Positions 9,507-34,507 of a stretch of DNA of 34,507 bases are shown here, piece by piece. The notes beneath the pieces are model-generated. The model made no database searches, was not told where the DNA came from, and saw only the letters and a program-made list of their open reading frames with translations. This DNA comes from a virus: the IMG/VR virus record IMGVR_UViG_3300046167_000281, positions 1-34,507 of that record. One strand, 5' to 3'. The translations under genes and the position numbers were made by a program. Position 1 is the stretch's first letter, and every line of letters starts with the position of its first letter.

Positions 9507-9941
9507 TCAGGCTAATGGCTTTTTTACAGGTGCAGTTGTCTTTAACTTTTCAGACATAGACTTTGTTGCTGCATTGCCATCATCATCTTCAGGTGCAATA
9601 CCTGTTGCGGCCATGATCGAATAACGCCTGGCATAAGTTAAGGCCGAGCCATAACCTTGAGGTGTCTGCTTATCAGCGGGTACATGAATCACACCCCCTG
9701 ACATCTGCTCGCCACTTTCATGTAAAAAAATTGTCTCAACCCTAATGCCTGACTCTGCATCATGAGTCTTTTGTATTAATGCTAACCCATGATTGTGTAA
9801 TGCATCTAGTACGGCTTCAATACAACCCGCCAAGTCTACATACTGACTTCTAAAATGAGGATTGGTACTGTTCTTTAGTGCGGGTGCAAATTCTTTCTGC
9901 GCTTGCACAAACGCTTTAGCAATCTCCGATGTTGTTGTCAT
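9507..9941 (-). CDS. erf: ERF-family single-strand annealing recombinase
   Basis: The frame runs from a TTG at 9953; the best start is the ATG at 9941, which has GGAG six bases upstream, giving 144 residues. It matches the ERF superfamily: AKAFVQAQKEFAPALKNSTN, NPHFRSQYVDLAGCIEAVLD, and the signature TPQGYGSALTYARRYSIMAA followed by GIAPEDDDGN. ERF proteins anneal complementary single strands in phage recombination and genome circularisation. It is about 100 bases downstream of a YqaJ-type exonuclease, the usual partner that makes the single strands. The C-terminus is short (KTTAPVKKPLA). Confidence 0.92.
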   Translation of the reverse strand: MTTTSEIAKAFVQAQKEFAPALKNSTNPHFRSQYVDLAGCIEAVLDALHNHGLALIQKTHDAESGIRVETIFLHESGEQMSGGVIHVPADKQTPQGYGSALTYARRYSIMAATGIAPEDDDGNAATKSMSEKLKTTAPVKKPLA

Positions 9942-10053
9942 CATTATCTCCAAAGTAAAGTTTAATAATATCTTGCCTTTTGCTCACATCTTTTACATTG
10001 CGATACAAGACTTCTAAAAAAGTATGAGTATCGTTCATTTCGTAATCGTCCAT
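9916..10053 (-). CDS. Small hypothetical acidic protein
   Basis: A 45-residue frame (MDDYEMNDTHTFLEVLYRNV at the start) that fills the space between the exonuclease and ERF genes, starting two bases after the exonuclease stop and overlapping the ERF start by 26 bases. Its start is preceded by GGGAGTTATA. The position and translational coupling favour a real gene. Function unknown. Confidence 0.55.
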   Translation of the reverse strand: MDDYEMNDTHTFLEVLYRNVKDVSKRQDIIKLYFGDNDDNNIGDC

Positions 10054-10055
10054 GA

Positions 10056-11021
10056 TTATAACTCCCTATCGCGTATGCGAAGTTTAGATTGTCGGATAGT
10101 CCTGGCGGGTTTCGCGGGGACTAGCTTTTGTGCTTGAGCTTTATAATTGATTACAGGCCATGAGATTTTATAACGCCCTGAAACAGCATGTTGATTGTCT
10201 CGCATAAAATTCATAATCTGAATCTGATGTAAGTTAATCTGCTCTTCCAAATCTTTTATCATGTCTCTAAATTCAATTATTTTTTCAGCATAATGCTCGG
10301 CTTCAGGTATCTCGATCTGATCCTTGTCAGGCTGATCGAAAATAGATGAAGCTTCAGCGGGTGTTTTAATGTCATACCACTCGACCTCATCATTGGTTTT
10401 ATACTTATCTAACCTACGCTGAAAGTCATTAATAGCATCATGTATTTGGGCCAATACATCTACATCCCTTTGATAGACAAAAGTCCGTAGAGTTGTACCA
10501 CGATACAAGACACACACTGCACCCCAGGTCGCACCTACTGTATCCATCTGCATTTGCAGCTGTAGTGGGCCACGATACAAAGGTAGGGAATCTGCACTCT
10601 CTACCTCATGAGCAGTTAGTTTGGCTTCGACAATGCCTACGCCCTCTAACCTTATCTCATCCTCATTGACACAAATAATACCCTTATCTAGGTCAGTCAT
10701 GATGATTGAATCATTGCCTTTGACATCACCATCTAAACTACATGCAAATGGCAAATCTTTATGAAAGTAAGGTTCAGGATGTTTAGTCGTTAAATCTTTG
10801 ACATCTAATCCTAAACGCTTACACGCTTCAACCAAGATAGTTTCCTCCAAGGTATTGCCCCAATCCATTGATTCATTAGATATAAATGGTGGTTCAATCC
10901 CTGAAATAATATCCATCTTTTCTTTTAACAGTTCATTGACTGTTTTAAACTTACTAGCACCCATCAATACAGGTATCTCGGATGCTGAAAGTTGGTCGTT
11001 CGGTGTTACTTTTCCTACCAT
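10056..11021 (-). CDS. YqaJ-type viral recombinase exonuclease
   Basis: A 321-residue protein with the core of the YqaJ/lambda-exonuclease fold: QLSASEIPVLMGASKFKTVN at residues 10-29, a Glu at 59 or 60 in WGNTLEET, Asp97 in CSLDGD, then VEAKLTAHE with Glu132 and Lys134, and QLQMQMD with Gln154 and Gln156. These residues bind the two metals used to digest one strand from DNA ends. The last 120 residues hold a coiled-coil stretch (EKIIEFRDMIKDLEEQINLH). With ERF downstream it forms a two-component recombination system like lambda Exo/Beta. Confidence 0.9.
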   Translation of the reverse strand: MVGKVTPNDQLSASEIPVLMGASKFKTVNELLKEKMDIISGIEPPFISNESMDWGNTLEETILVEACKRLGLDVKDLTTKHPEPYFHKDLPFACSLDGDVKGNDSIIMTDLDKGIICVNEDEIRLEGVGIVEAKLTAHEVESADSLPLYRGPLQLQMQMDTVGATWGAVCVLYRGTTLRTFVYQRDVDVLAQIHDAINDFQRRLDKYKTNDEVEWYDIKTPAEASSIFDQPDKDQIEIPEAEHYAEKIIEFRDMIKDLEEQINLHQIQIMNFMRDNQHAVSGRYKISWPVINYKAQAQKLVPAKPARTIRQSKLRIRDREL

Positions 11022-14708: not shown

Positions 14709-14763
14709 TTTTATGTACCTTTTAAAGTTTATAAATACCGCCCTATTTGGTCGGCTTGAATGT

Positions 14764-14792
14764 AGTTTAGCAGCGTTAAAAAATAATTGCAA
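14764..14792 (-). promoter_or_regulatory. Sigma70-like leftward promoter at the control region
   Basis: Minus strand: TTGCAA (14792-14787), 17-base spacer, TAAACT (14769-14764); four of six bases match in each box. It is placed to drive the 14708 gene and the leftward early block. A 12-base palindrome sits 12 bases upstream of the -35. Confidence 0.55.
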
Positions 14793-14804
14793 ATATCTTA
14801 ATTA

Positions 14805-14816
14805 ATAACGCGTTAT
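14805..14816. promoter_or_regulatory. 12-base palindrome ATAACGCGTTAT
   Basis: Exact palindrome in AT-rich surroundings, just upstream of the leftward promoter. A dimeric regulator site is plausible; no known consensus is claimed. Confidence 0.4.
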
Positions 14817-14931
14817 ATTGTGAGTGTAATTCGCAAGATGTACATATCATATTAAATGAGTATTGATATAAGCTAGTTAAAAAAGTATGTATGGCATTTA
14901 TCCGATAATCGACCAGGGCGCAATTATTACT

Positions 14932-14986
14932 TGTGGATAATACTGTGCATAACTTGCCCTATTTCTGTGGATAACCCTGTGGATAA
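14932..14986 (+). other. Cluster of four DnaA-box-like sites, likely replication origin
   Basis: TGTGGATAA, the complement of the DnaA box TTATCCACA, occurs exactly at 14932-14940, 14966-14974 and 14978-14986; TGTGCATAA, one mismatch, is at 14944-14952. All four face the same way. Starts are 12, 22 and 12 bases apart, so they fall on close to the same face of the helix. An AT-rich stretch lies to the left. Such clusters are bound by host DnaA at origins. No phage replication enzyme is visible in this genome, which strengthens the case. Confidence 0.78.
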
Positions 14987-15092
14987 CTTGACCTTTGCCC
15001 CCCCCGTACCCCCACACCATATATAGGGTATCACACACAAATTTTTGCTGATAATCTCAAAAAACTGTCTATAAGGAATTGTTGACTGACTG

Positions 15093-15161
15093 ATCGTTAC
15101 GATATGTTTTAAGACATGTCTTTATAAAGACTAATATGACAACATATTATCGTTACGATAT
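15093..15161. promoter_or_regulatory. Operator-like array: flanking ATCGTTACGATAT repeats and nested palindromes
   Basis: ATCGTTACGATAT is present exactly at 15093-15105 and 15149-15161; its core ATCGT-T-ACGAT is an inverted repeat. Between them AAGACATGTCTT (15111-15122) and GTCTTTATAAAGAC (15118-15131) are both perfect palindromes sharing the middle GTCTT, giving three half sites in alternating direction. This looks like binding sites for one or two dimeric regulators. The winged-helix protein at 15501 and ribbon-helix-helix protein at 16725 are candidates. Confidence 0.6.
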
Positions 15162-15275
15162 TGACCTACCCTGATATTTAAAAGCGACATAAGACCTAAC
15201 CCGTATAGAAAAAGAGTATTTTCGATATGGGGTCACTCCCTTAAAAAGGAGGGATGGCTCTCGTTTATCTAGTAT

Positions 15276-15288
15276 AGGTTATTAACCT
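15276..15288. promoter_or_regulatory. 13-base palindrome AGGTTATTAACCT
   Basis: AGGTTA and TAACCT are exact inverted repeats around one T. Its AGGTTA half resembles the AGGTT of the leftward leader repeat, but this link is weak. Possible regulator site. Confidence 0.4.
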
Positions 15289-15466
15289 CCGCTTTCACGA
15301 TCCCTGTACTCTCTATATATCGATGAACTGATATGGATTATTAAGGTATCTCTGCAGTTAAACTCGTTTATTCCCTTGGTCACCATCTACCGACAGGAGG
15401 GGTGGGTAATGCCCCCGTATTTATTAATTTACAGTATTGAGCAGATAAGTCAATTAGTTTATTTAC

Positions 15467-15494
15467 TTGACCAACTATATCTATGAGATATACT
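15467..15494 (+). promoter_or_regulatory. Rightward sigma70 promoter for the regulator operon
   Basis: TTGACC (15467-15472), 16-base spacer, TATACT (15489-15494); both boxes are one base from consensus. The expected transcript start is near 15500-15501, which is also where an ATG lies, so the first mRNA may be leaderless. Confidence 0.65.
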
Positions 15495-15500
15495 TATTGT

Positions 15501-15923
15501 ATGGAATATAAGATACCTAAGTCTATAGAGATAAAGAAGTTAAGGAATAAGGATCATAGACACTTTGTTGTGTTGCCGTTTAAAGCAATTATAGATAAGA
15601 AAGTATCTGCCGCCAATATAAGAACACTAGGTATATTAGCAGCGTACTGTAACAAACAAGGATTTAGTATTGTTGGATTGAGGACAATGGCGAGTAAGTT
15701 ACAAACAAGCTATCAGAATGTCTTTAACCAACTAAAGAAGTTAGAAGAGCTAGGATATGTAGAGAGTAGAAAACGATCTGCCTATCCAGGCATTCGAGGT
15801 AACTTGAGACGGATTATCTTTGATGACTCGATCAAGTGGGATGATGTAAAAGGTTATATGTTAGATAACGAAGATATTAAGCATATAGTTAAAGTAAATA
15901 AGATTGATAACTTTGAGGAATAG
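15501..15923 (+). CDS. Winged-helix DNA-binding protein (regulator or replication initiator)
   Basis: The frame has an ATG at 15483, but this falls in the promoter's spacer and has no ribosome site; I choose the ATG at 15501, giving 140 residues (MEYKIPKSIEIKKLRNKD at the start). The middle is a clear winged helix: SAANIRTLGILAAYCNKQGF, GLRTMASKLQTSYQNVFNQL, KKLEELGYVESRKR, with helix-turn-helix and a basic wing. It is the first gene right of the DnaA-box region. It could control the divergent promoters or help start replication; the sequence does not decide. Confidence 0.78.
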   Translation: MEYKIPKSIEIKKLRNKDHRHFVVLPFKAIIDKKVSAANIRTLGILAAYCNKQGFSIVGLRTMASKLQTSYQNVFNQLKKLEELGYVESRKRSAYPGIRGNLRRIIFDDSIKWDDVKGYMLDNEDIKHIVKVNKIDNFEE

Positions 15924-16728: not shown

Positions 16729-16886
16729 GTGATTTAAAACCATTTCTAGTTAGACTAACACCAACCAGTGTTGATCTGCTAGGTAAGGCAGCAAAGGAAC
16801 AAGAAAAGACTAAAGCTGGAATTATTAATGAAGCAATTAAGTCCTATCTTGGCAAAGACATAAACAGTAGACTAAACAAGTTATGA
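16725..16886 (+). CDS. Ribbon-helix-helix DNA-binding protein (Arc/CopG type)
   Basis: A 53-residue protein with a strong AAGGAGG ribosome site. The order strand (FLVRLTP), helix (SVDLLGKAAKEQEKT) and helix (KAGIINEAIKSYL) is the ribbon-helix-helix fold of CopG/Arc repressors, which bind palindromes as dimers. The palindromes at 14805-15288 are natural target candidates. It overlaps RusA by four bases (ATGA). Confidence 0.78.
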   Translation: MSDLKPFLVRLTPTSVDLLGKAAKEQEKTKAGIINEAIKSYLGKDINSRLNKL

Positions 16887-17266
16887 AAAAAACTGTTCGG
16901 CTAGATTTACCTTACCCACCAAGTGTTAATACTTATTGGAGGGCAAATGGACACAGAAGATATATTAGTCCAGCTGGGGTAAAGTTTACCGAAGAGGTAT
17001 CGCTTGTTGTCAAAAATAAAAAACCGCGAACATTTGGCGATAAACAAGTTGCCATAAGCGTAATGATTCATCCTAGATCTAAACGAAAGTTTGATTTAGA
17101 CAACACCTTAAAAGCTATTTTAGATGCATTAATGAAAGCTGGCATGTATGATGATGATAGCCAGATTGAATATATCGAGATAGCTAGAGGGGAACACATT
17201 GATGGCGGTAAAGCTGTCGTATATTTATATGATTATATAGGAGAAGAACATGGCTCAGGATTATGA
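16883..17266 (+). CDS. rusA: RusA-type Holliday junction resolvase
   Basis: A 127-residue protein close to the normal family length. PYPPSVNTYWRANGHRRYIS at residues 10-29 is the family's N-terminal signature; the catalytic acidic cluster is FDLDNTLKAILDAL (Asp71, Asp73, Asp81) followed by YDDDSQI (Asp90 and following). RusA dimers cut four-way junctions, here probably clearing recombination intermediates made by the exonuclease/ERF pair before packaging. It overlaps the SSB-like gene by 17 bases. Confidence 0.92.
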   Translation: MKKTVRLDLPYPPSVNTYWRANGHRRYISPAGVKFTEEVSLVVKNKKPRTFGDKQVAISVMIHPRSKRKFDLDNTLKAILDALMKAGMYDDDSQIEYIEIARGEHIDGGKAVVYLYDYIGEEHGSGL

Positions 17267-17531
17267 AGTTAAACCAGGACAAGGATCAGTTTGGCCGAAC
17301 GACCGCAAGACAGAAGATTGGCATGCAGATCACAGAGGGAAAATATTATTACCTGATGGAAGTGAACACTACATTGATTTATGGAATAACGAAAAGGGTG
17401 GCAAGACTTGGATGGGGATCAAGATTGGTAATCCTGTTCAAAACTCAGGTAGCACCGCACCAGTACAAAATACAAGCAAAGCTCCTCAACCTGAAAGCTT
17501 TAGCGAAATAGAAGATGATCTACCTTTTTAA
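17250..17531 (+). CDS. Small SSB-like protein with acidic C-terminal tip
   Basis: A 93-residue protein. The core (WPNDRKTEDWHADHRGKILL, YIDLWNNEKGGKTWMGIKIG) resembles a family of short phage proteins with a compact beta fold. A Gln/Ser/Pro linker leads to SEIEDDLPF at the end, very close to the DDDIPF tip by which bacterial SSB recruits replication and repair proteins. This suggests single-strand DNA binding or host SSB-partner recruitment. It lies between RusA and the packaging genes. Confidence 0.65.
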   Translation: MAQDYEVKPGQGSVWPNDRKTEDWHADHRGKILLPDGSEHYIDLWNNEKGGKTWMGIKIGNPVQNSGSTAPVQNTSKAPQPESFSEIEDDLPF

Positions 17532-18581: not shown

Positions 18582-20124
18582 GAAAGTCCGTAGTGCCAAA
18601 ACGCTTGCTGGCCCTGGAATTGATTTAGATTTTACTGGAGCTAGAACAACTTATGATTTCTTACAGGATAATTCTTTTGTTAGGGGATTAATGGGGCCAG
18701 TAGGTAGCGGTAAGTCTTACGCTTGTGCTGCTGAAATTATGATGCGTGCTGTTAGGCAGAAACCATCACCACATGACAATGTTCGTTACACAAGATTTGT
18801 TATCGTGCGTAACTCATATCCTGAACTAAAAACAACAACAATTAAAACATGGCAAGAGATATTTCCTGAAAATACTTTTGGGCCAATGTTATATACACCA
18901 CCAATAACACATCATATTAGATTGCCTAAGCGTGGTGATGCATGTGGAATAGACTGTGAAGTTATATTCCTAGCACTCGATCAACCAAAAGATGTTAGAA
19001 AACTTTTATCATTAGAACTAACGGGGGCATGGGTTAATGAAGCTAGAGAACTTCCTAAGGCAGTTATTGATGGTCTTACTCATCGTGTGGGTAGGTATCC
19101 TACTAAGCGTGATGGTGGCCCTACATGGCATGGAGTCTGGATGGACACTAACCCAATGGATGACGACCACTGGTGGTACAGACTGTCAGAAAAAGACAAG
19201 CTGTCAGGAAAGTTTGCTTGGCAGTTTTTTAAACAACCAGGCGGTGTGGTCGAAGTCCAGCCTGAAGATTTACCAGAAAATCCAGAAGCCAACGATCATG
19301 TTTTCTCAGGAGGAAGATGGTGGACAATAAACAGTAAAGCAGAGAATGTAAATAACTTACCTAGCGGATACTACATGCAAATGTTGGGGGGTAAAAACCT
19401 AGATTGGATACGCTGTTATGCTGAAGGCAAATATACTTATGTACAAGAAGGTAAACCTGTATGGCCTGAATATAATGATTTAATGATGAGTGGCGATGTA
19501 GAATACGATCCACAACTACCTATTCATGTTGGACTTGACTTTGGTTTGACACCTGCCGCAGCTATTGGACAAAGATTAAACAATGGTCGATGGGTTATCT
19601 TGCATGAGATAGTAACAGAAGACATGGGGTTAGAAAGGTTTGGTAATCAGTTGTTAGCAGAGCTTAATGCCAAGTATCCTAAAGCACAAGTATTAATATG
19701 GGGTGATCCTGCGGGTATGCAACGAGATGCAATCTATGAAGTAACGGCATTTGATTACTTACGAACACTAGGATTGCGTGCGCAACCCACTGCATCTAAT
19801 AACTTTAAGGTTAGGCGAGAAGGAGCAGCTGCGCCAATGCAAAGATTAATTAATGGTAAACCTGGTTTGATTGTGGATAAATCGTGTAAGATGATAAGAA
19901 AGTCATTAGCAGGTGGCTATCATTTTAAGCGTATTGCTGTCGGTGCAGGACATGAAAGGTTTAAAGATAGTCCAAATAAAAACGAACACTCACACATTGG
20001 TGATGCTTTTGGTTATTTAATGTTGGGTGGGGGCGAGCATAAACGAATGACTAAGAACAGTTTAGCAGCTAATACAATGATAGTGCAGACTGTTGCGACA
20101 GCAGAGTTCGATGTATTTAAGTAA
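18571..20124 (+). CDS. terL: Terminase large subunit
   Basis: A 517-residue packaging motor. Walker A GPVGSGKS is at residues 42-49, Walker B LTGAWVNEA at 150-158 with catalytic Glu158, and a coupling-type MDTNP motif at 191-195. The C-terminal nuclease has Asp323 in VGLDFG, Asp379 in IWGDPAG and Asp478 in HIGDAFGY. It uses ATP to move DNA into the prohead and cuts concatemers. The start lies inside the end of the coiled-coil gene. Whether it cuts at fixed ends or by headful is not visible from the protein. Confidence 0.95.
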   Translation: MSNKKVRSAKTLAGPGIDLDFTGARTTYDFLQDNSFVRGLMGPVGSGKSYACAAEIMMRAVRQKPSPHDNVRYTRFVIVRNSYPELKTTTIKTWQEIFPENTFGPMLYTPPITHHIRLPKRGDACGIDCEVIFLALDQPKDVRKLLSLELTGAWVNEARELPKAVIDGLTHRVGRYPTKRDGGPTWHGVWMDTNPMDDDHWWYRLSEKDKLSGKFAWQFFKQPGGVVEVQPEDLPENPEANDHVFSGGRWWTINSKAENVNNLPSGYYMQMLGGKNLDWIRCYAEGKYTYVQEGKPVWPEYNDLMMSGDVEYDPQLPIHVGLDFGLTPAAAIGQRLNNGRWVILHEIVTEDMGLERFGNQLLAELNAKYPKAQVLIWGDPAGMQRDAIYEVTAFDYLRTLGLRAQPTASNNFKVRREGAAAPMQRLINGKPGLIVDKSCKMIRKSLAGGYHFKRIAVGAGHERFKDSPNKNEHSHIGDAFGYLMLGGGEHKRMTKNSLAANTMIVQTVATAEFDVFK

Positions 20125-33351: not shown

Positions 33352-34507
33352 ATGGCTAAAAAGAATACCTGTTTAGTAAGATTACAAGGAATGTTAGACA
33401 AATCTTCTATTGGGTTTGTTGAAAAAGACGAAATAATGAATGCAATTAAGATTGCTCAATCAGAGTTAAAACTTAATAGTATTGATGAGATTAATGTAGA
33501 TGTAGTCGCTAAAGATGTACAGTCACAGATTATATTGCAAAGAAAAATTAATAAACGAAATGCTATTGAAGATGAAATCAAAGGTAGAGAATTAGTTGAT
33601 TATGTATTAAGAGAGTTTCCTGATAATCCACAAGAAGGCTTAACTTCTATATTAGTAGGATCTAATGAACAGAAAGCAGGAGCAAGAGCTTCAGTAGCAG
33701 TACAACAACATGCATCAGTTAATCAAGCTATTAATGGATTAATGAAACAATTAGCTGATAGCAATGTAGAAACTTTATTTGCTAAAGCTGATGAGCCTAC
33801 TCAATTAAGAATTGTTAGAACTATGTATGAGTTAGCACAAAAGCCAACTAAAGCAGAAGCTGACACAGGGATTAAACCTGTGATTACAGAGAAAAATGCA
33901 GAAATAATTAAACTTGCTACTATCTTGCATGAGTATTCTGAGATGATGAGGGTTAAGTTAAATGATCGGGGTGCTAACATTGGTAAAATTTGGGGTTATG
34001 TAGTTAGACAATCACATGATCCATATTCAGTTAGAGATGCTGCTAAAGTTTTGGGTGATACAACTACAGAGGCTGATCCTAGCATTGAAGGTAAGTGGGA
34101 TAAAAATTACAATAGAAACTTCAAAGCTTGGAAAAACTTTGTAATGGAAAGATTAGACCAAGAAAGAACATTTGCTGGTGTAGAGAACATTGATGAGTTT
34201 ATGTTATTTGCATATAACTCTCTTATTAAGAATGAAAACTTAAAATCTGATGGTGCTGAGTTTACATACAATGCAAAGCCAACAAAAAACATAGCTAAAT
34301 CATCACAGATGAAAAGGGTATTACATTTTAAAAACGCTGATACTTGGTTTGAATACAATAAGAATTTTGGTATGGGCAATTTAAATGAGTCTTTCTTTTC
34401 AGGCTTAACTTCTGTTGGTCGTAATTTAGGCATTATGGATACATTAGGTACAAAGCCAGAAGTAAACTTTGAAAAAATTAGAAAAGCAGTTGCAACTCGT
34501 ATAACTC
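33352..34507 (+). CDS. Internal virion / DNA ejection protein (gp16-like), N-terminal part
   Basis: It begins two bases after the previous stop with GGAAG as ribosome site and runs open to the window end: 385 residues (MAKKNTCLVRLQGMLDKSSI at the start), continuing in frame at base 1 of the window to stop at 1436. Composition is helical and charged (KWDKNYNRNFKAWKNFVMER). It overlaps no other plausible gene; a long frame on the other strand near 34107-34433 is a shadow. The joined protein is most likely the inner-membrane end of the ejection tube. Confidence 0.76.
   Translation, partial: MAKKNTCLVRLQGMLDKSSIGFVEKDEIMNAIKIAQSELKLNSIDEINVDVVAKDVQSQIILQRKINKRNAIEDEIKGRELVDYVLREFPDNPQEGLTSILVGSNEQKAGARASVAVQQHASVNQAINGLMKQLADSNVETLFAKADEPTQLRIVRTMYELAQKPTKAEADTGIKPVITEKNAEIIKLATILHEYSEMMRVKLNDRGANIGKIWGYVVRQSHDPYSVRDAAKVLGDTTTEADPSIEGKWDKNYNRNFKAWKNFVMERLDQERTFAGVENIDEFMLFAYNSLIKNENLKSDGAEFTYNAKPTKNIAKSSQMKRVLHFKNADTWFEYNKNFGMGNLNESFFSGLTSVGRNLGIMDTLGTKPEVNFEKIRKAVATRIT

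Follow-up and report, generated by a model that had tools for sequence, protein, structure and literature searches.

How does a small phage with T7-like virion genes and no polymerase of its own begin to copy its DNA, and what part could be played in this by a row of DnaA boxes in its main non-coding region? The locus that raises the question lies in the window analyzed here, the whole 34,507-nucleotide IMG/VR record IMGVR_UViG_3300046167_000281, which is the near-complete genome of a small marine phage with MEP301 as its nearest isolate. The frames cut at the two ends of the window (33352-34506 and 3-1436) between them match positions 2-350 and 366-825 of the same virion protein family, phrog_684, and agree in frame; because one virion gene is thus split across the ends, the record is an opened circle, though it is classed as linear.

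Replication and recombination genes

The T7-like part of the genome encodes portal, capsid assembly, tail tube and internal proteins. Apart from the terminase subunits, profile matches identify four genes of DNA metabolism:

9507-9953, minus strand, ERF single-strand annealing protein
10056-11021, minus strand, YqaJ/RecE-like exonuclease
16883-17266, plus strand, RusA Holliday junction resolvase
17250-17531, plus strand, SSB-like protein (phrog_18154, E 1.7e-6)

Scans against Pfam and/or PHROGs, which covered nearly all sizeable genes, found no polymerase, primase or helicase gene, and the same profile scans found no P-like or DnaC-like helicase loader. An earlier reading made from the sequence alone (the sequence-only reading) had noted the absence of the first three, and this was borne out. 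Its description of the phage as lacking visible replication enzymes overlooks the SSB-like, ERF, exonuclease and RusA genes as well as an initiator gene at 15501-15923, and the missing polymerase is not a novelty, since the lack of both DNA and RNA polymerase has been published for MEP301 (PMC8024684). The phage therefore needs some way of recruiting the host replisome.

A clustered array of DnaA boxes

The largest non-coding gap of the window (~14709-15500), which separates divergent gene blocks, contains four boxes:

14932-14940, plus strand, DnaA box 1, exact TGTGGATAA
14944-14952, plus strand, DnaA box 2, TGTGCATAA, the other strand of which fits TTATNCACA
14966-14974, plus strand, DnaA box 3, exact TGTGGATAA
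14978-14986, plus strand, DnaA box 4, exact TGTGGATAA

A site scan confirmed the arrangement given in the sequence-only reading (three exact sites and one with a single mismatch, on one strand, their starts separated by 12, 22 and 12 bases), and the location in the main non-coding region likewise held. The usual DnaA-box consensus is TTATNCACA, with TGTGNATAA as its reverse complement; the latter is matched by all four boxes, box 2 included, so that all four are consensus sites. The boxes make up two copies of a 29-bp unit that are 86% identical. The sole further TGTGNATAA site in the window, at 19872, lies within the terminase gene.

Across the whole window, sites with one mismatch number 10 against 12.6 expected, which is not above chance, and the evidence for the array is therefore its clustering. 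When 300 genomes were simulated with the dinucleotide composition of the window, the maximum number of sites in any 60 bp was one in 282 genomes, zero in 16 and two in 2; the array is clustered beyond chance. Comparison of the window DNA with annotated phages produced no match to the array region, and a literature search on DnaA boxes in such phages returned nothing relevant. Pairs of TGTGGATAA placed 1-4 bp apart were seen in at least 120 viral contigs (L188-L307), mostly unrelated to the MEP301-type family; close DnaA-box pairs are thus not special to this family and may be widespread among phages.

A putative initiator gene beside the array

The first gene to the right of the gap, and the promoter in front of it, were assigned as follows:

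15467-15494, plus strand, initiator-gene promoter, sigma-70-like, TTGACC-16-TATACT
15501-15923, plus strand, predicted replication initiator, short form, 140 aa, winged helix (PHROGs, AlphaFold2, Foldseek)

The start codon at 15501 was taken from the alignment of relatives; the promoter ends 6 bases before this ATG, so the initiator mRNA may be leaderless. Alone, the protein gave a weak match to phrog_428 (E 6e-5). Among 43 diverse aligned relatives, all 43 matched phrog_428 and 37 matched an O-like initiator family, the best matches reaching ~1e-12. An AlphaFold2 model built from the alignment of the 43 relatives (pLDDT 80) replaced a first model from close relatives only, which was too poor (pLDDT 47). 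Among other winged helices, Foldseek matched the model to the plasmid Rep DNA-binding domains 5kbj, 4pt7 and 4pql, and the model also resembled the O protein of phage Min27. Since the fold matches in the PDB were modest (E ~1e-3, with CodY ranked first), the assignment depends mainly on PHROGs; a PDB search with the initiator sequence profile gave nothing significant. Taken together, profiles and model identify the product as a predicted winged-helix replication initiator of the phage O/plasmid Rep kind.

Two forms of the initiator occur among the relatives, a short one of ~140 aa, as in the window, and a long one of ~200-255 aa. The short form is encoded to the right of a conserved RNA and the long form to its left (for example, in L337, L354 and MEP301). 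In MEP301, the homologue of the O/Rep-like initiator is gp55 (34057-34662), annotated as hypothetical.

A conserved structured RNA on the minus strand

The RNA block lies between the array and the initiator gene and is conserved even where the initiator proteins are only ~30% identical:

15189-15419, minus strand, conserved structured RNA, ~230 nt, leftward, with a long-range pseudoknot (from covariation)
15426-15453, minus strand, RNA promoter, sigma-70-like, TTGACT-16-TAAATT

In a structure-blind alignment of 57 distinct sequences, 22 pairs in six helices retain pairing in 94.7% of the cells, compared with 30-49% when the partners are slid by 1-3 columns, and 18 of the 22 pairs show two-sided changes. 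One helix joins a hairpin loop to a strand ~120 nt downstream in the window copy, forming the pseudoknot. The case for the RNA rests on covariation because the folding energy of single sequences is unremarkable (z 0.25 and 0.87).

A plus-strand RNA, which was assumed at first and has a terminator-like hairpin, was rejected for two reasons: in well-aligned helices the departures from pairing favor the minus strand 32 to 4, being A-C rather than G-U when read on the plus strand, and a sigma-70-like promoter is found at the minus-strand 5' end in 53 of 61 loci compared with 8 of 58 at the other end. The -10 box of the RNA promoter mostly ends 7-9 bases before the minus-strand 5' hairpin.

No family of Rfam 15 matches the RNA by covariance models; the sole match, in L154 at 1217-1334 (E 0.12), is far below the gathering score and outside the RNA of that locus (~184-213 and upstream). 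By covariation and comparison with Rfam, this appears to be a new RNA, conserved, pseudoknotted and apparently equipped with its own promoter. When its 3' motif alone was used as the query, 72 of the 76 newly fetched loci encoded relatives of the window phage's proteins; the RNA is a hallmark of the MEP301-type phage family. Both the RNA and the initiator gene of this family are also found in L185 (CAKZOO010000124.1), a contig in a Flavobacteriaceae MAG, which is probably phage sequence binned with a bacterium.

The RNA may act as leader to the leftward operon, as a free regulatory RNA or as a component of the origin. A DUF1289 gene lies downstream of it in MEP301 (L001, 33564-33881) and, judged by eye, a like gene follows it in many relatives; the window, like its closest relatives, has only a remnant of the end of this gene, at 15030-15075. 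In L009, L017 and L051, the RNA and the initiator gene are separated by an inserted gene that by eye looks to be of the PAPS-reductase type; the RNA is thus not a strict leader of either.

Other signals in the intergenic region

Three further elements surround the array:

14841-14900, no strand assigned, A+T-rich, easily melted block, candidate unwinding element (the least stable 60-mer near the array)
14998-15017, no strand assigned, C-runs C8 and C5 (G-runs in the leftward transcript), just right of box 4
15093-15105 and 15149-15161, no strand assigned, two identical near-palindromic 13-mers ATCGTTACGATAT, found only in the closest relatives

For ease of melting, the 60-mer at 14841 ranks within the top 0.7% of the genome; it overlaps a conserved block, shared by relatives, whose end reads ACTAGTT or GCTAGTT. 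Several other stretches are equal to it or worse in stability, and its instability is compatible with an unwinding element but not specific. Of 63 relatives, 46 have a run of at least five C and 12 have only a G-run; 16 of 17 arrays have such a C-run beside them. The ATCGTTACGATAT pair is operator-like or iteron-like, and possibly an operator or an initiator site. No convincing iterons were detected in or near the initiator gene, the 13-mer occurring in only two copies and being absent from most relatives.

A minimum of GC skew near 14.9-15.1 kb had been proposed as a check on the origin. The cumulative minimum does fall at ~14.5-15.5 kb, but it vanishes at four-fold degenerate sites, where no consistent skew is seen. 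As the minimum coincides with the switch in gene orientation and tracks it, GC skew is not independent evidence and was rejected as proof of an origin.

Strand, place and turnover of the array in related phages

The relatives are contigs retrieved by searching with terminase, initiator or RNA sequences; those that are related to one another are not independent. Across 53 related loci with room for an array, the 500 bp to the left of the conserved RNA contain 53 consensus boxes, every one of them on the plus strand, and such boxes are nearly absent from the rest of these loci; a second, partly overlapping survey gave 60:0 (plus to minus). Successive sites are spaced by 11-12 bp in 39 of 65 cases and by 21-24, 32-36 or 44-47 bp in the others, close to multiples of ~11 bp, which puts the boxes on one face of the helix. 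The number of sites per array reaches six or more, all in the same orientation and phased. Position and strand support functional conservation of the sites in part of the phage family.

Two or more boxes are present in just 14 of the 53 loci, and most relatives have no array. Between close relatives, the flanking framework (on the left, the A+T-rich block ending in ACTAGTT or GCTAGTT; on the right, the C-run) is retained, and turnover or replacement affects the array between its two parts. L030 and L031 encode identical initiator proteins and differ in the presence of the array. On a tree of 38 short-initiator genes, the presence/absence label changes nine times; one of these changes is an artefact, as a gene inserted between RNA and initiator in L010 shifts its array outside the counted range. 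These sequence comparisons show the array to be optional, gained and lost between near-identical phages. The proposal in the sequence-only reading that the phage depends on host DnaA accordingly goes too far, since most relatives that share the virion and initiator genes, MEP301 among them, have no array at all; none was found near the MEP301 initiator.

An array is present in 12 of 34 phages with the short initiator compared with 2 of 81 with the long one (one of these two came from the box scan), an association that is suggestive only, since the short group is a single lineage. In the long-initiator phages, the rare arrays lie after the initiator gene, and their place relative to the RNA and the C-run is unchanged.

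A candidate origin with an optional DnaA module

We hold, with moderate confidence, that the array is the DnaA-binding part of the phage replication origin, at which a phage initiator, host DnaA as an optional helper and the host replisome would act together. The observations behind this explanation are the sites with their clustering, strand, phasing and place in relatives, the homology of the initiator and the absence of fork enzymes; DnaA binding, opening of the DNA, origin activity and helicase loading we infer. The phage would supply its own origin-binding initiator (15501-15923) together with SSB-like and recombination proteins, but not the enzymes of the fork. In phages that have the array, host DnaA would bind the boxes as an oriented, helically phased row and help to open adjacent A+T-rich DNA, most likely at 14841-14900, and/or help to load the host helicase, with the host replisome doing the rest of the copying. 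As in iteron plasmids and P1, DnaA would then assist initiation as an optional factor and would not be the sole initiator, and the phage probably borrows the host copying machinery much like some plasmids do. Such a mixed origin would account for a phage without fork enzymes, for boxes whose strand, phasing and place are fixed, and for the fact that the family as a whole can do without these boxes; the adjacent initiator homologue, the easily melted DNA and the retention of the array in place despite sequence turnover speak for it. Against it stand the lack of an array in most relatives, the difference between phages with identical initiators (L030 and L031), the absence of convincing iterons, the A+T-rich block that is not unique and a GC skew that gives no help.

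Three other explanations were weighed. That the array is a DnaA-responsive regulatory site, through which host DnaA-ATP sets the leftward early operon or the leftward RNA while replication starts elsewhere or without DnaA, is unlikely. DnaA is a known transcription factor, for example at uvrB; the array lies between divergent units, with the first leftward start codon (~14708) ~220 bp downstream of it and the minus-strand RNA promoter on its upstream side, and its loss in many relatives fits a tunable regulator. Six or more phased boxes in the same orientation, however, exceed typical regulatory need, and in the long-initiator phages the array follows the initiator gene instead of lying beside the leftward operon, so that the neighboring promoter changes while the place relative to the RNA and the C-run stays constant.

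Less probable still is a decoy, in which the many phage copies titrate host DnaA, halt chromosome initiation and free the replisome for the phage. High-affinity consensus boxes in tight rows, freely present or absent, fit such an accessory trait, and tandem duplication of boxes alone could yield a uniform strand; yet a decoy needs no fixed strand, place or phasing, whereas the strand count is 53:0 and the place is constant. Local tandem duplication without selected function is very improbable: although the repeated 29-bp unit and the coming and going of arrays are in line with it, other lineages have retained the boxes despite divergence of the intervening spacers, and arrays that arose independently reappear at the same place, on the same strand and with the same phasing.

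MEP301-group phages occur commonly among marine and freshwater contigs, and a description of how replication starts in these polymerase-less podophages was not found in the literature searched. The analysis provides the group with candidates for the initiator and for the origin, the latter with an optional host-DnaA module that its members have gained and lost, and adds a new structured RNA; near-identical natural pairs, in which one phage has the array and the other does not, allow a direct test of what host DnaA does in a lytic phage.

Comparison with known systems

The likeness to T7 is confined to the virion genes: there is no match to the single-subunit RNA polymerase and own DNA polymerase of the true T7 group (Autographiviruses). 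MEP301 (MW452941), a Methylophilales phage that infects OM43 bacteria, has a terminase 86% identical to that of the window and matches it in gene content (YqaJ, ERF, SSB, RusA, T7-type capsid assembly and tail tube proteins among others) and in the conserved RNA; the terminase, structural and recombination genes in common place the window in the MEP301-type group. The two phages differ in the initiator, which in MEP301 is long (201 aa) and on the other side of the RNA, and in the DUF1289 gene, which the window has lost.

The order of elements recalls the ColE1 RNA II origin, in which a structured RNA is likewise transcribed toward G-run-forming DNA followed by a DnaA-box site. In contrast to ColE1, the window has a protein initiator, no antisense RNA was seen, no sequence relation is shown, and 12 of 63 relatives do not preserve the polarity of the G-run; the arrangement is only suggestive of a primer RNA processed by RNase H. 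It is rather unlikely that the leftward pseudoknotted RNA is itself part of the origin, providing or controlling a primer or an R-loop at the G/C-run that immediately precedes the boxes, which would combine a ColE1-like RNA, a Rep/O-like initiator and an optional DnaA array in one origin.

The O-type origin of lambda is approached through the initiator, with O-like families matching 37 of its 43 relatives and the O protein of Min27 matching by fold. Unlike the lambda type, the window has DnaA boxes, no iterons within the initiator gene and no P-like or DnaC-like loader.

The origins of P1, F, RK2, R6K and pSC101, like the window, combine DnaA boxes, A+T-rich DNA and a winged-helix initiator close by with use of the host replisome; in these replicons, the DnaA sites, the initiator and the A+T-rich DNA work together, and the role of DnaA can be mainly facilitatory (PMC5043065). 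The window differs from iteron plasmids and P1 in its initiator of only 140 aa, its T7-like virus setting and the lack of a convincing iteron row. With the DnaA-box cluster and the adjacent Rep/O initiator gene in place and the iteron row missing, we describe the origin as one that would work like the iteron type and do not file it as a member. The comparison with P1 and these plasmids suggests a mixed origin, with a phage initiator and optional help from host DnaA.
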